Below, one piece after another: positions 35,550-43,264 of a stretch of DNA of 64,000 nucleotides (position 1 is its first letter; each line of letters begins with the position of its first letter). Made by a program: the position numbers and the translations under genes. The notes beneath the pieces are model-generated. The model was not told where the DNA came from and did no database searches. It saw nothing but the letters and a program-made list of their open reading frames with translations. Origin of the DNA: Candidatus Eiseniibacteriota bacterium (lineage in GTDB: Bacteria; Eisenbacteria; RBG-16-71-46; CAIMUX01; WJJG01); the NCBI GenBank assembly GCA_023129715.1, contig JAGMBO010000002.1, positions 1-64,000 of the forward strand. The letters are read 5' to 3'.

Positions 35550-37916
35550 TTACGGAGTTCTGGCGGGATCGTCACCGTTGATTGGGATCAGCCCCCGATC
35601 GCGCAACAGAGCCAGCAATGCGCTGTCGGCCGCCTCGGGCGTCAAGTCCCGCTGCGCGCGGCGGCGTCCAACATAGAGGTCGACGGTCTGGGGCCCCGCG
35701 CCGACGTATCCGAAATCGGCATCCGCCATCTCGCCGGGACCGTTGACCGAACATCCCATGACGGCGATCTTGACCGCGGGGAGATGCCCCAGCTTGCTCT
35801 TCAGCCGGCGCACGGTGCTCTCCAGGTCGAAGTGCAAGCGGCCGCACCCGGGGCAGGAGATGAACTCGACGTGCGAGAGACGCCGGCGCGTCGCTTGCAG
35901 GATCTCGCGGGTGATCTGCAATCCCGCGGCGGTCTCCGTCGTCAACGACGGCGGCGGAGCCTCCGTCAACGACGGTGGCGAGGCCTCCGTGGGCGACGGC
36001 GGTGAGGCCTCCGTGAGCGACGGCGGCGAGGCCTCCCTGAACGGTGACGGTGGGGTCCCACGAGACATCGCTGGCGGGATCATCACTGCATCGGCGAGGT
36101 GATCGAGCAGGAGCGCCCCGAGGCCAAGCACGGCTTCCCAGCGGTCGGCGGGGAGTCGCGCGATCAGAAGCGGCCGTTGTGCCTGCTCGGGATCCTGCTC
36201 GCAGCTTGTCCAGAGGGCGAGGGCCAAGGCGCGTCCTCCGGCGACGAGGTTTTTCCCCTCCCACGAGAAGGCGGGCTCCTTCCACCCGGCTGCAAGGCTC
36301 AGCTGCCGCAGCCGGCGGGCAGCCTGCGCCCAGGCGGTCAGAGCGCGGTCGATGCTCTCGCCCGCCCCGGGAGCGGCGTCATCTGAGCGTGCGGCCGCAT
36401 CGGGCACGCGCAGATGCCAGCGGAGGAGGCCAGAGGGGGAGGAACCGTCCGCGCCCCCGGTGAGCCGGGAGGCGAGCAGCTCGAGGAAATGGGTCAGCGC
36501 CTTCTCCGGCAGGGCCGCGGGGCTCAGCGCCGGCGTCGGGGTCTCGGTCCTCGCAGGGGCCGAGCCGTCTCGAGAGAGTAGGGAGGCCCGACCTTCCCCA
36601 GGGACGTGCAGCACGAGGCCATCGATCGCACCGAGCAGTTCGCCGGAGAGGAATCCCTCCGCTTCCGCCAGGCGACTCCGATCGGCATTGGGTGCCTGCC
36701 AGAGTTCCTGCCAGAAGGGCTGCCGTTGATCGACCGCCAGCCAGATGGGTACCGCGGCGGGCAGCCCCTCGCGCAGGCGAAGCCATCGATCGTGCAGCGC
36801 GCGCCCCGCGGCCCCATCGGCGATCACCGGAGGATGCAGGACCAGCGACTCGATGGGGGGCTCGTGGCGCCGCCCGATCTCCAGAGCCGCGAGGCACTCG
36901 TCCGGGCCGCGAGGAGAAGGCGGGGTGCTGACCAGTTCGATCCTCGGCGGATGAGTTCCTCCCAAGGGAATCCCGCGCCACGACGTCGCCGGCGGATCCG
37001 GCCGAGACGGGGTTTTGCCGCCGCTAGGCTGCGCGGCGTCCCCCGTGCTCCGCACTTCGCGGCCATCGGCGTTCGCGCTGCCGACGTTCGCGCTGCCGAC
37101 CCCGCCGAGTCGTTCGACGGCGGCGAGGATCTCGCGGCAGACCGGGATCTCACCGGCCGGGTGCCCGGTCAGGCTGACACGGATCGTATCGCCGATGCCA
37201 TCGAGCAACAGGGTGCCGATGCCGACCGCGCTGCGCAAAGCCCCCTCGTCACCTTCCCCTGCCTCGGTGACCCCGAGGTGAATCGGCATCCGCAGGCCGG
37301 TCGCTTCCATTCGCGCCGCGATCAGCCGGTTGGCGGCGACCATGATCGCCGGGTTCGACGCCTTCAGCGAGACCAGGACGCGCGTGAAGCCGTGGGCGCG
37401 ACAGATCTCGAGGTAGTCGAGGGCCGAGACGGCCATGGCCGTCGGGCCATGCCCGTGGAGCGCGGTGACGTAAGGGGCCAGGGAGCCGTGATTGACTCCG
37501 ATGCGCAGGGCGGTTGCGTAGCGATTCAGTTCATCGAGCAAGGCTGGAAGACGGCGGCGGACCTCCTCCTCGCTGGAGGCGAAGTTGCCCGGATTGATCC
37601 TTACCTTGGCGACGTGGGGTGCGGCATCGAAGGCGATCCGGGGATCGAAGTGGACATCGGCGATCAGGGCGACGGAGGGCGCCCGGGCGTTCAGTCGCTC
37701 ACGCAGCGGTGCCAAGGCCTTGGCCGCACGGCGCGAGGGAACCGCCAGGCGGATCAGGCGGCAGCCCGCCTCGGCAAGCGCCTCGATCTGTGCACAGCTG
37801 CCCTCGAGGTCGGCCGGGTCGGTGGTCGTCATCGACTGGATGACGATCGGATAGTCACCGCCGACGACGATATCGCCGACCTGGACGGGATCGCTGATCC
37901 GCCGCCTGGCAACCAC
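35550..37916 (-). CDS. ispG: 4-hydroxy-3-methylbut-2-enyl-diphosphate synthase, three-domain type
   Basis: About 788 residues. It reduces MEcPP to HMBPP in the MEP isoprenoid pathway, using a [4Fe-4S] cluster. The N-terminal TIM barrel shows PIVIQSMTTTDPADLEGSCA, ALIADVHFDPRIAFDA and VRINPGNF. The C-terminal iron-sulfur domain has I-S-C-P-G-C-G-R (~688) and M-G-C-S-V-N-G-P-G-E (~720), giving the three Cys and one Glu ligands. Between them is the large inserted A* domain of plant, Chlamydia and FCB-type IspG. A GTG at 37916 is chosen because GGGAGG lies just upstream of it; ATG 37943 is possible. Four 8-residue Pro/Ser-rich repeats sit in the linker. Confidence 0.93.
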   Translation of the reverse strand: MVARRRISDPVQVGDIVVGGDYPIVIQSMTTTDPADLEGSCAQIEALAEAGCRLIRLAVPSRRAAKALAPLRERLNARAPSVALIADVHFDPRIAFDAAPHVAKVRINPGNFASSEEEVRRRLPALLDELNRYATALRIGVNHGSLAPYVTALHGHGPTAMAVSALDYLEICRAHGFTRVLVSLKASNPAIMVAANRLIAARMEATGLRMPIHLGVTEAGEGDEGALRSAVGIGTLLLDGIGDTIRVSLTGHPAGEIPVCREILAAVERLGGVGSANVGSANADGREVRSTGDAAQPSGGKTPSRPDPPATSWRGIPLGGTHPPRIELVSTPPSPRGPDECLAALEIGRRHEPPIESLVLHPPVIADGAAGRALHDRWLRLREGLPAAVPIWLAVDQRQPFWQELWQAPNADRSRLAEAEGFLSGELLGAIDGLVLHVPGEGRASLLSRDGSAPARTETPTPALSPAALPEKALTHFLELLASRLTGGADGSSPSGLLRWHLRVPDAAARSDDAAPGAGESIDRALTAWAQAARRLRQLSLAAGWKEPAFSWEGKNLVAGGRALALALWTSCEQDPEQAQRPLLIARLPADRWEAVLGLGALLLDHLADAVMIPPAMSRGTPPSPFREASPPSLTEASPPSPTEASPPSLTEAPPPSLTTETAAGLQITREILQATRRRLSHVEFISCPGCGRLHFDLESTVRRLKSKLGHLPAVKIAVMGCSVNGPGEMADADFGYVGAGPQTVDLYVGRRRAQRDLTPEAADSALLALLRDRGLIPINGDDPARTP
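35941..36036 (-). repeat. 24-bp in-frame tandem repeat (4 copies) in ispG
   Basis: Four 24-bp units close to GTCAACGACGGTGGCGAGGC (plus CTCC) code for the eight-residue repeats S-P-P-S-L-T-E-A in the linker before the Fe-S domain. The period preserves the frame. Confidence 0.85.
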
Positions 37917-38202
37917 GTTGTTCCTCCCTGGAGAAGCCACCATGGGGAGAGAGGATAGCAGACCGGTTGTGGTGCGAAGAATCTTGATCCAAGGGGCCAA
38001 GGCGAACGGGGCCAGAAGCTTATCGGTATACGTAGACTTCGGTTGGCGCTGGGCCCCTGCTTGCGCGAGGCAGATGTAGGGCAGTCGGTCTCATGGGCGG
38101 AGTAACTTCCACCCCGGAAAAGAGCTACATGCTGCGCGTCAGGAATCGTCGTGCCACAATCAGCGAGGTAGAACTCCGGGGGCCCGGGGGTGGGAGCATC
38201 CG
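37917..38202. other. Divergent intergenic region
   Basis: 286 bp between ispG and rtcA. I see no gene, no strong promoter and no clear hairpin; a GTATAC palindrome at 38026-38031 is the only notable string. Confidence 0.3.
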
Positions 38203-39264
38203 ATGATCGAAATCGACGGCAGCGCTGGAGAGGGGGGTGGGCAGGTCCTGCGCACGGCGCTCTCGCTCTCGGCATGGCGGCAGCAGCCGGTGCTGATCAC
38301 CGGGATCCGAGCCCGACGCCGCCAGCCGGGGCTGAAGGCCCAGCACTTGACGGCCGTTGCCATGATCGCGCAGCTCTGTGATGCGCGCGTCGAGGGCGGC
38401 GAGCCGGGCTCGACGACGCTCGCCTTCCGGCCGGGAGCCGTGCACGGCGGCGCCACCGCATTCGCCGTCGGCACGGCGGGCGCCACGACACTCGTCGCGC
38501 AGGCTGCCCTGCCGCCGCTCTGGGCGCACGGATTGCAGGCGGAACTGACGATCAGTGGGGGCACGCATGTGGCCTGGTCGCCGCCGGTCGATCATCTGCG
38601 AGATGTCTTCGCGCCGACGGTGATTCGTCTGGGCCTGCCGATCGAGGTCGAACTCGTCCGCTACGGGTTCTATCCGCGCGGGGGTGGACGCATCAAGGTG
38701 ACGCTGTCGGCACCTGCGCCGGCGGCTGCTCCGGCCGCCGAGCCGCGGGCCATCGTCTGGGAACGGCCCGCCCGCCGGCGGATCCGCGTCGATGCGACTG
38801 CTCTCGTCGCCGGCCTGCCGCGTCACATCGCGGAACGGATGCTGGCGACCGCGGGCCGCAGCCTGCGTGCCAAGCACTGGCGCGCGCGCGAGCGGATTCT
38901 CGAAGTCCCGGGCGGCCCGGGGGCCTATCTCTTCATCCGCATCTCCACCGCGGCAGATGCGATCGCGGAGGATGGCTACATCGCCGGGGGATTCATCGGA
39001 TTGGGCGCTCCGGGCAAACCCGCGGAGGTCGTGGCGGAAGAAGCCGTCGGTGAGGCGCTCGGTTTCCTGGCGAGCGAGGCGGCGCTCGATTCGCGCCTCG
39101 CCGATCAGATCGTGCTGCCGGCGCTGGCGGCCCGACGCTGCGTCTCTTTCCTCACCCCACGCGTCAGCCGGCACCTGCAGACCAATGCAGCCACGCTTGC
39201 CCGCTTCCTGGGCCCATGCGTCGAAATCTCCGGCGAGGGGCGGGTTACCGTCCGGCCCGGCTAG
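38203..39264 (+). CDS. rtcA: RNA 3'-terminal phosphate cyclase
   Basis: 353 residues, the normal length. It converts RNA 3'-phosphate ends to 2',3'-cyclic phosphate using ATP. Family motifs are IEIDGSAGEGGGQVLRTALS, ARRRQPGLKAQHL, GGTHVAWSPPVDHLRDVF, YGFYPRGGGR and LADQIVLPALA. A conserved SRHLQTN near the C-terminus holds the His that is adenylated in the E. coli enzyme. RtcB and RtcR are not in the window. Its 3' end overlaps the convergent regulator gene by 20 bp. Confidence 0.95.
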   Translation: MIEIDGSAGEGGGQVLRTALSLSAWRQQPVLITGIRARRRQPGLKAQHLTAVAMIAQLCDARVEGGEPGSTTLAFRPGAVHGGATAFAVGTAGATTLVAQAALPPLWAHGLQAELTISGGTHVAWSPPVDHLRDVFAPTVIRLGLPIEVELVRYGFYPRGGGRIKVTLSAPAPAAAPAAEPRAIVWERPARRRIRVDATALVAGLPRHIAERMLATAGRSLRAKHWRARERILEVPGGPGAYLFIRISTAADAIAEDGYIAGGFIGLGAPGKPAEVVAEEAVGEALGFLASEAALDSRLADQIVLPALAARRCVSFLTPRVSRHLQTNAATLARFLGPCVEISGEGRVTVRPG

Positions 39265-40129: not shown

Positions 40130-40329
40130 CTTTTCCCCCTTGCCAAGGGTGGGATGGCGGGGTTCCATTCGCCCCGTTCGGATGGGGTCCGCAGTCTGCG
40201 CCCACATTCTACGGTCAGGCCTACACGGGCATCAAGGGGCGTCGGGTCATCCCGACGTCTCGCGCAACCTGTTGAATGGAGGGGGATCATGGCCTCGGGG
40301 GCCAGGGGGATGACGGTGGGGGCAGGGGG

Positions 40330-41979
40330 ATGACGGTCGGTGCGATGATCACGGTGCTGCTTTGGCTGGCCGCCTCCGCCCGCGGGCACGCGGCCCCCAC
40401 CGATGATTTCGACTGGCCCGCTGCTGCCGACTCGGCGATCGTGCGATCCCTGACCATCTCGCGCGGCAACATTTTCACTCCTGATGAGCCCGAAGCGAGT
40501 CGTTTCTATGCGCGCCTGGCCAACGCGTTGCACATCGTGACCCGCGAACATGTGGTTCGCCGCGGCCTCTACTTCACCGAGGGCGACACGATCTCCGCCG
40601 CCGACCTGGCCGCCTCGGTGCGCCGCCTGCGCACCTACCCCTTTCTGAGAACCCGGATCGATCTCGATGTCGCCGGCGATCACGATTCGGTCGACGTCAC
40701 CGTGCGCACGAGCGATGCATGGAGCACGCGGCCCGAGGCCCGTCTCAGTCAATCGGGAGACCTCTTCGAATGGTCGTTCAGCCTGCGCGAATCGAATCTT
40801 CTCGGTCTCGGCAAGGAGATTGGGGTCGAGGTCGGCCGTGAGGATCAGAGGCTTTTCTGGAGCGGCAAGTATGCGGACCAGCAGCTACTGGGCAGCGATT
40901 GGCAACTTGGCCTTTCGGTTGCAGCGGGTGAGGATCTGGAGGCCCAGGGGGTCACCCTCTGGAGGCCCTTCGGCCGGCCGGCGACACCCTGGGGCTTTCA
41001 TGTAGAGGCCGGGCGCTACGAGGGGACGCTGATCGACAGACGGGGAGGACTCGACGGCCCCGAGTGGGAGACGCGGCGCTGGTCGCTCGTGGCGAATGGG
41101 GGCGTGCGGATCTCCGGTGATGAGCGCGGTGCAGTTCGGCTGAAGGCCTTCGCCTACTTGGTCAGCGAGCGCTACACGCCGCCGGACGATTCCAGCGAAT
41201 GGGTCGCCAGCGACGATGGGGCATCGGGCCCCAATGCCCATGCCCCGCTGCGGGAGCGGCAGATCCGCGGCGTGGGGCTGGCCCTCTCGCGGATCGACGA
41301 GCGCTTCTTCCGGTTCACCCGGATCGACGCCCTCGGGCAGTACGAGGACATCGATCTGGGCGGCCGGTTCGAAGCGGGTGCCGCCTACTCGCCCGCATCA
41401 TGGGGGGCCTTGCGGGATGGGATCGTGCTGACCCTCGATGGCTGCCAGGGCATCGGCCTGGGACGAGAGAGCTTTCTGCGGCTGTCGGCGCGCGGGGTGG
41501 GGCTCTTGGCCGCCGGACGCCTGGAGGACGCGCTGATCGAGGGCTCGGCGCGGTTTCACGGCCGGATCGATACGCGCCAGACTCTCGCCCTGGGGATCCG
41601 GGGAGAATTCGGCGTCCGCGTCGCGCCCCAGCGTTTTCCGACTCTTGGTGCGCACAACGGCCTGCGGGGCTTCGACGCCTATCGCTTCTGCGGCGAGCGG
41701 ATGATCCTGGCGAACGTGGAGGAGCGCGTGCTGGTCGTGGAGGATTTGTTCGGCCTCGTCTCGGTCGGCATGGCGGCGTTTGCCGATGTGGGGACGACCT
41801 GGATCGCCGGCCGGCGGGAGGCCGCCCGGCCGCGCGTGGCCGCGGGTGTCGGTCTACGTCTGGAAGCCAGCCGGACCAGCGGTGTCCTAGTTACACGGCT
41901 CGATCTGGGGTACCCGGTGGTCGGAGGGGATCGCGAGGATGGCTGGGTGCTCTCGTTCGGGAGTGGACAGGCATTCTAG
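40330..41979 (+). CDS. Omp85/BamA-like outer-membrane protein
   Basis: About 549 residues. A signal peptide (MITVLLWLAASARGHA) is followed by one POTRA-like domain (VVRRGLYFTEGDTISAADLA, VRRLRTYPFLRTRIDLDVAG, DHDSVDVTVRTSDAW) and a barrel of alternating beta strands. The end shows FADVGTTW, AAGVGLRLEASRTSG and L-D-L-G-Y-P-V, as in Omp85 surface-antigen domains, with a terminal Phe. It probably inserts or moves proteins or lipids at the outer membrane. With a single POTRA it is a TamA/Omp85-like paralogue rather than BamA. The start could be 40330 or 40345; a 20-bp duplication of the GGGGGATGACGGT region precedes it. Confidence 0.75.
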   Translation: MTVGAMITVLLWLAASARGHAAPTDDFDWPAAADSAIVRSLTISRGNIFTPDEPEASRFYARLANALHIVTREHVVRRGLYFTEGDTISAADLAASVRRLRTYPFLRTRIDLDVAGDHDSVDVTVRTSDAWSTRPEARLSQSGDLFEWSFSLRESNLLGLGKEIGVEVGREDQRLFWSGKYADQQLLGSDWQLGLSVAAGEDLEAQGVTLWRPFGRPATPWGFHVEAGRYEGTLIDRRGGLDGPEWETRRWSLVANGGVRISGDERGAVRLKAFAYLVSERYTPPDDSSEWVASDDGASGPNAHAPLRERQIRGVGLALSRIDERFFRFTRIDALGQYEDIDLGGRFEAGAAYSPASWGALRDGIVLTLDGCQGIGLGRESFLRLSARGVGLLAAGRLEDALIEGSARFHGRIDTRQTLALGIRGEFGVRVAPQRFPTLGAHNGLRGFDAYRFCGERMILANVEERVLVVEDLFGLVSVGMAAFADVGTTWIAGRREAARPRVAAGVGLRLEASRTSGVLVTRLDLGYPVVGGDREDGWVLSFGSGQAF

Positions 41980-42029
41980 TTGCGGCTGTGCCATGGGATT
42001 GGCGCGAGGGGTCCGTTGCCGGGAAGGAT

Positions 42030-42058
42030 TTGACATCCTGTGTAGAATTCGTGATAAT
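42030..42058 (+). promoter_or_regulatory. Near-consensus sigma-70 promoter
   Basis: TTGACA (42030-42035), a 17-bp spacer and GATAAT (42053-42058) form the best housekeeping-type promoter in the window. Transcription would start near 42065, more than 200 nt upstream of the GTPase start codon. Confidence 0.75.
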
Positions 42059-42063
42059 GGTGC

Positions 42064-42233
42064 GTGTATTGACTTCGAGCGAGCGGTGAGGGGGTACAAG
42101 CAGTTCTGGAGGGATCTGTTTCTGGGTGAGGGTCCCGAAGTAGACCTCCACGCGGTCCTTGTGGCCGCCTGCTTCCAAAACGCTGCTAGCTCGCACGCCC
42201 CCGTGGCGATAGCATCGTCGCGGGGGTTGTTCT
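42064..42233 (+). ncRNA. Candidate structured RNA (~170 nt)
   Basis: The transcript predicted between the promoter and the terminator-like hairpin folds well by eye: P1 GCGAGC/GCTCGC (42079-84 with 42189-94), P2 AAGCAG/CTGCTT (42098-103 with 42169-174), P3 TGGAGG/CCTCCA (42107-112 with 42145-150) extended by TTC-GGG/CCC-GAA, and P4 GCGGTC/GGCCGC (42152-157 with 42163-168). P2, P3 and P4 meet in a three-way junction. It matches none of the RNA families I know (not obviously 6S, SRP, tmRNA or RNase P). It may instead be the leader of the GTPase mRNA. Confidence 0.5.
42198..42233 (+). terminator. Intrinsic-terminator-like hairpin
   Basis: CCCCCGTGGCGAT (42198-42210) pairs with ATCGTCGCGGGGG (42214-42226): 13 bp with two G-T wobbles and a 3-nt loop, followed by TTGTTCT. 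It lies between the promoter at 42030 and the GTPase gene, so it should end or attenuate that transcript. Confidence 0.65.
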
Positions 42234-42277
42234 GAACGGACGAAGACTAGGGATTCCAAGACCGAGCCAGGGAAGGG

Positions 42278-43264
42278 ATGCCGGCCAACCTATCGCCAGA
42301 GTACTTGCGTCTCGATGAACGGCTCCGCCAGGTGCGGGACCCACAAGAGAAGCTTGTCATTCTGCGCGAGATGCTCGCGGCCATTCCCAAGCACAAGGGG
42401 ACCGACAAGCTCCAAGCGGATCTCAAGCGGCGCATCTCCAAGATGGAGGAGGGCGTCCAGCAGCGGGCGAAGCGGGGTGGACGGGATCCCTTTCACGTTC
42501 CGCGTGAAGGCATCGGTCAAGTGTTGCTCGCCGGCGCGCCCAACGCCGGCAAATCGTCTCTTCTGTCCAAGCTGACCAACGCAACCCCTGCGGTCGCCGG
42601 CTATCCTTTCACAACCCACCAGCCGCTTCCGGGGATGGTTGCCTATGAAGATGTGCAGATCCAACTCGTAGACATGCCCCCGCTTTCGCGCGATTACACG
42701 GAGGCGGCGCTCTTCAACACGTATCGCGTTGGGGACATCATTCTTCTCGTCATCGACATGAGCGACCCCGACCCCGCGGTCGTTGTGCAGGAATGCATCG
42801 ACCTCTTCGATGAACACCTCATTCACCTCGTGCCCCACCTGGTCGATTCCGCCGGCAATCTCTCGACCATCGAGAAGCAGGCTTTGATCCTGGCGAACAA
42901 GATCGATCTCGCCGGGGCATCGGCCCCGGGGCGGCTTGCGGAGGCCGGGGATCTGGAGCTGCCGGTTCTCAACTGCTCGGCGGAGACGGGTGAGGGGCTT
43001 GCCGGCTTGCCCGAGCGGCTGTTTCACGAACTGCGCCTGGTTCGGGTCTACACCAAGAAGCCGGGGAAGAAGTTCGTCCGCGACGCACCCTTCGTCCTGC
43101 CGGAGGGATCAACGGTGCTCGATGTCGCTCGGGCGATCCACAAGGACTTCGCCGACGGCCTGCGCTCGGTGCGCCTGTGGGGTTCGGGGAAGCATGACGG
43201 CATCCCGGCTCCCCGCGACCATATCGTTGCCGACGGCGACATTCTCGAGATCCACACACGCTGA
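42278..43264 (+). CDS. Obg/DRG-like GTPase with TGS domain
   Basis: 328 residues. A helical N-terminus precedes the G domain: G1 LLAGAPNAGKSSLLSKL (residues ~84-100), the switch region AGYPFTTHQPLPGMV, G3 QLVDMPPLSR (D-M-P-P instead of D-x-x-G), and G4 ANKIDLAG. Residues ~255-328 form a TGS domain (FVRDAPFVLPEGSTVLDVAR, PRDHIVADGDILEIH), as in DRG and YchF/Obg-related GTPases. It probably acts at the ribosome. Its transcription start is uncertain because of the terminator-like hairpin just upstream. Confidence 0.88.
   Translation: MPANLSPEYLRLDERLRQVRDPQEKLVILREMLAAIPKHKGTDKLQADLKRRISKMEEGVQQRAKRGGRDPFHVPREGIGQVLLAGAPNAGKSSLLSKLTNATPAVAGYPFTTHQPLPGMVAYEDVQIQLVDMPPLSRDYTEAALFNTYRVGDIILLVIDMSDPDPAVVVQECIDLFDEHLIHLVPHLVDSAGNLSTIEKQALILANKIDLAGASAPGRLAEAGDLELPVLNCSAETGEGLAGLPERLFHELRLVRVYTKKPGKKFVRDAPFVLPEGSTVLDVARAIHKDFADGLRSVRLWGSGKHDGIPAPRDHIVADGDILEIHTR

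Follow-up and report, generated by a model that had tools for sequence, protein, structure and literature searches.

The locus and its predicted transcript

The window (the whole stretch of 64,000 nt analysed here, from a Candidatus Eiseniibacteriota bacterium) contains, between a gene for an Omp85-like outer-membrane protein and a gene for a TGS-domain GTPase, the promoter, the folded RNA and the terminator-like hairpin with which this report is concerned. All lie on the forward (+) strand, as follows.

40276..41979, +, gene for an Omp85-like outer-membrane protein, the upstream neighbour in 5/5 genomes
42030..42058, +, sigma-70-type promoter, TTGACA-N17-GATAAT, with an equivalent in all five family genomes
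42065..42233, +, predicted RNA transcript, its 5′ end placed from the promoter
42077..42088, +, 5′ strand of helix P1, GAGC-G-AGCGGTG, with G42081 opposite A42188; nearly invariant in five genera
42089..42097, +, J1/2, unpaired, conserved G-rich strand AGGGGGTAC
42098..42103, +, 5′ strand of helix P2, AAGCAG, partner 42169-42174
42107..42150, +, hairpin P3, two stacked helices with loop TGAGGGT (fold; compensatory changes)
42152..42168, +, hairpin P4, GCGG-T-CC-TTGT-GG-CCGC (fold; covariation)
42169..42174, +, 3′ strand of P2, CTGCTT (fold; covariation)
42181..42192, +, 3′ strand of P1, CGCTGCT-A-GCTC, inside the conserved stretch CTGCTAGCTCGCA
42198..42233, +, terminator-like hairpin of 13 bp with loop AGC, then the T-rich tail TTGTTCT (sequence, fold, covariation)
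42278..43264, +, TGS-domain GTPase gene (Pfam MMR_HSR1 and TGS), the downstream neighbour, separable from the RNA

A preliminary description of this DNA had reported a near-perfect sigma-70 promoter at 42030-42058. That assessment is borne out, in that 11 of the 12 consensus bases are present, with a spacer of 17 nt. Sites with at least 9 of 12 matches would be expected by chance at a frequency of 0.2 per 2.5 kb. The same arrangement, TTGACA, a 17-nt spacer and a −10 box of the form NATANT, was found in 5/5 genomes of the window’s family, with 10-12 matches of 12. Between the −10 box and P1 lie 20 to 126 nt, depending on the genome, and the 5′ leader of the RNA is therefore variable and its 5′ end not fixed.

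The preliminary description had also stated that the region contains no ORF, which is right in effect. Frames that are open by chance do cross the RNA locus (e.g. 41939-42235), but they are not conserved among the relatives. A coding function on either strand was ruled out: the core of the RNA measures 123, 126, 128, 128 and 132 nt in the relatives, the indels are not multiples of three, and a shared peptide is absent from the middle of the region.

The 13-bp hairpin with a T-rich tail of the preliminary description was confirmed. The stem (42198-42226) comprises 13 pairs, some of them G-T, and is kept in 5/5 genomes with compensatory changes, but the tail has only 5 T of 7 and the hairpin was absent from the list produced by an automatic terminator scan of the region. 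The T tails are imperfect in the relatives as well. The strength of the terminator is thus uncertain, and termination may be partial.

Two further genes were observed in the vicinity. An RNA 3′-terminal phosphate cyclase gene (RTC with its insert domain; RtcA-like) is situated at 38203-39264 of the window, and the minus strand of 35550-38000 encodes a long protein with a likeness, judged by eye, to IspG (GcpE), into which a large proline-rich segment is inserted.

Fold and covariation of the RNA

The RNA at 42065-42233 has a folding energy of −80.3 kcal/mol, with z = −3.76 relative to dinucleotide shuffles, of which 1 in 200 was equally stable. The four pairing elements and the three-way junction proposed in the preliminary description are supported by this fold, and the three-way junction is the arrangement common to the folds of all five sequences.

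Covariation was assessed in an alignment of the five sequences in which 91.9% of cells pair. Changes on both sides of a pair were found at 14 of 50 pairs, compared with a mean of 6.8 for shuffled alignments, and none of 500 shuffles reached 14; fitting the alignment to the structure favours the latter, and its sequences, no more than five in number, come from draft genomes. When the pairing partners were slid by 1-3 columns as a control, 1-6 pairs with changes on both sides remained. A MAFFT-based fold, which is independent of the model, gave 12 such pairs. It is apparent that the conservation and covariation of this RNA in the relatives are well beyond chance.

The compensatory changes are located in P2, both helices of P3, P4 and the terminator hairpin, so that the covariation anticipated for P1-P4 was obtained for all of these except P1. 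That helix is 100% paired, and 9 of the 11 pairs are the same throughout; because it hardly varies, it yields no covariation evidence. The (almost) invariant sequence is AGCGGUGAGGGG on the 5′ side and CUGCUAGCUCGCA-NN-CCCCCG on the 3′ side, and the middle of the RNA varies by compensatory changes and in length. Conservation resides in both strands of P1 and not in one single-stranded seed.

Distribution of the RNA and arrangement of its neighbours

The RNA is present in 5/5 available genomes of the window’s family, which represent five genera of Candidatus Eisenbacteria. A DNA search detected it in the four other family genomes, at 72-73% identity, and not in the more distant genomes searched. 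For comparison, the neighbouring proteins of these relatives share only 44-47% identity (Omp85-like) and 60-67% identity (GTPase) with their counterparts in the window. Scanned independently for a sequence pattern, 84,980 species genomes yielded the same four relatives and one chance-like match. The latter, in a contig labelled ‘Gemmatimonadetes’ (L022), covers the 3′ motif but lacks the 5′ half and the fold, and is probably due to chance; by a rough count, about two chance matches to this motif would be expected in the collection.

From the five sequences a covariance model, R1, was derived, which scored 116-150 bits in all five family genomes. No matches were found in the 42 other genomes of the phylum, and at a loose threshold no convincing match emerged from the remainder of the order; weak matches in G000, G005 and G009 were terminator-like hairpins or loose matches. 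The exact two-part pattern occurs in 5 of 47 genomes of the phylum, every one in the window’s family, and a viral collection contained no matches to the RNA. As far as these genomes show, the RNA is thus restricted to one family, with the proviso that the searches might overlook a form that has diverged strongly.

The earlier impression that the RNA matches no common family was confirmed: when the window, the RNA locus and contigs of the relatives were compared with Rfam, the RNA was assigned to no family, and nothing was obtained at the locus even at E = 10. Searches of the open-access literature for Eisenbacteria together with noncoding RNA or riboswitches brought up no described structured RNA of this sort from these bacteria, and a search for structured-RNA surveys was likewise unproductive.

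In four of the five genomes (G000, G001, G002 and G004) the gene order is Omp85, RNA, GTPase, and the gap between the hairpin and the GTPase start is 23-55 nt. The arrangement differs in G003. There, the end of the Omp85 gene (read directly), the promoter, the RNA and the hairpin all occur together, and they are followed by an opposite-strand gene and then by an opposite-strand gene for a repeat protein, which in G001 and G004 adjoins the far side of the GTPase gene. The GTPase gene of G003 lies on another contig (C221), and the 550 nt upstream of it are without the RNA. The separation of the RNA from the GTPase gene is seen in this one genome only; there is some small chance of a draft-assembly error, but what flanks the RNA in G003 is coherent on either side. 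The positions concerned are 590-4534 of C119 (L080) and 931-1929 of C221 (L081); the GTPase gene has moved from its usual place, where another gene is now found.

These arrangements bear directly on an alternative view, in which the RNA acts in cis on the TGS-GTPase gene as an attenuator or riboswitch leader: the three-way junction would sense a signal and thereby decide whether the terminator forms. The short distance between hairpin and GTPase start codon in 4/5 genomes is in its favour, particularly in G001, where 23 nt leave scant space for another promoter, and the imperfect T tails would fit partial termination. A leader would, however, be expected always upstream of the gene it regulates, and in G003 the RNA is retained with its promoter and hairpin but with no GTPase gene behind it, while the GTPase gene is found elsewhere with no such leader. 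Relatives of the GTPase in other families of the order are likewise without the RNA element. In addition, when the single obvious candidate for an antiterminator, in which the GGGG strand pairs with the CCCC of the terminator, was forced, the resulting fold was 19-21 kcal/mol worse in 5/5 sequences, and it was rejected on energy. A leader as the whole explanation is accordingly considered unlikely. Because G003 separates the two, a role as leader of the GTPase gene in the other four genomes is possible but unlikely to be the RNA’s only role, and of the two possibilities raised in the preliminary description, an independent small RNA or a leader of the GTPase gene, the former is favoured.

The RNA might instead be a processed 3′ UTR of the Omp85-like gene, which precedes it in 5/5 genomes; the near-consensus promoter that lies between the two in 5/5, with a constant 17-nt spacer, makes this very improbable. 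Least probable, and rejected here, is the view that it represents a divergent or second 6S RNA. The length, end-closing helix and own promoter are reminiscent of 6S, and in three relatives that are more distant the 6S model has two matches. A recognisable 6S lies on another contig in G001, G002 and G003, however; the fold of this true 6S is a single long rod, and model R1 does not match it. A rod with a central bubble is the 6S shape, in place of the three-way junction found here, and the 6S model (RF00013) has no match at the RNA locus even at E = 10. At E ≤ 0.001 the same model detected no 6S in either G000 or G004, a result that could be held to favour a second 6S; most relatives do have a 6S, and these two cases may reflect a very diverged 6S or an assembly gap.

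A predicted stand-alone small RNA and its possible mode of action

Taken together, these data indicate that the folded RNA of approximately 165 nt is very probably a real and new small RNA, carried by all five sampled genera of one Eisenbacteria family. The reading preferred here, with a probability of roughly 0.72, is that of a stand-alone, lineage-restricted structured small RNA which would have its own promoter and act in trans, perhaps bound by a protein. It would represent a new family within a well-known kind of molecule, the small RNAs, and one that is apparently undescribed.

We infer from the conserved signals that the RNA is transcribed and that it acts in trans. Transcription would start at the RNA’s own sigma-70 promoter, and at least some of it would stop at the terminal hairpin, with a degree of read-through likely to feed the GTPase gene. 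The product would be about 165 nt in the window, and longer in those genomes with a longer 5′ leader. P1 would close the ends of the RNA, with two hairpins set on the three-way junction.

As to how such an RNA might function, a protein partner would bind the near-invariant P1 together with the G-rich strand at the junction, while P3 and P4 would serve as a variable scaffold. Protein binding by these elements is the favoured mode, but it is weakly held and rated at somewhat less than an even chance. It is preferred over an mRNA-pairing seed on two grounds: conservation extends to both P1 strands as well as to the G-rich strand next to them, and sites complementary to the G-rich strand are not in excess (30, the RNA loci included, versus 48 for a reversed-pattern control). 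Base-pairing with mRNA is accordingly thought rather doubtful as a mode of action, and no conserved pairing target for the RNA stood out in this search for complements of the G-rich strand. Hfq was detected in 0 of 13 genomes, all five family members among them, in searches in which the positive controls worked and with drafts that are 69-96% complete. As a tentative proposal, given slightly under even odds, the RNA could constitute a new RNA family specific to this one family of Eisenbacteria that forms an RNA-protein particle or regulator, its partner bound by the closing helix and the G-rich junction.

In its intergenic position, sigma-70 promoter, compact fold and terminal terminator-like hairpin, the RNA resembles stand-alone bacterial small RNAs of unknown function. 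It differs from them in that conservation lies in a paired helix and the junction, and not in an evident single-stranded seed, and in that Hfq was undetected. Like riboswitch and attenuator leaders, it combines a junction of several helices with a terminator-like hairpin a short distance upstream of a gene; unlike them, it gave no alternative antiterminator fold with the GGGG-CCCC pairing tried and is separable from the gene. With a covariance model to hand, its phylogenetic range defined and a natural case in which it stands apart from the neighbouring gene, the RNA is directly testable with metatranscriptomes.

In Y RNA, the conserved end-closing helix, which bears a mismatch, is the invariant part and the rest is variable. 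By analogy, the RNA described here may be likened to the Y RNA/Ro (TROVE) system, since it too has an invariant, mismatch-bearing closing helix with a variable remainder, and an RtcA-like gene is nearby. It has no Rfam match, however, and a TROVE protein was found in 0/5 family genomes, so that identity with Y RNA is unlikely. A TROVE (Ro-like) protein was observed in one genome of the same class that belongs to another family (G011, L073-L074).
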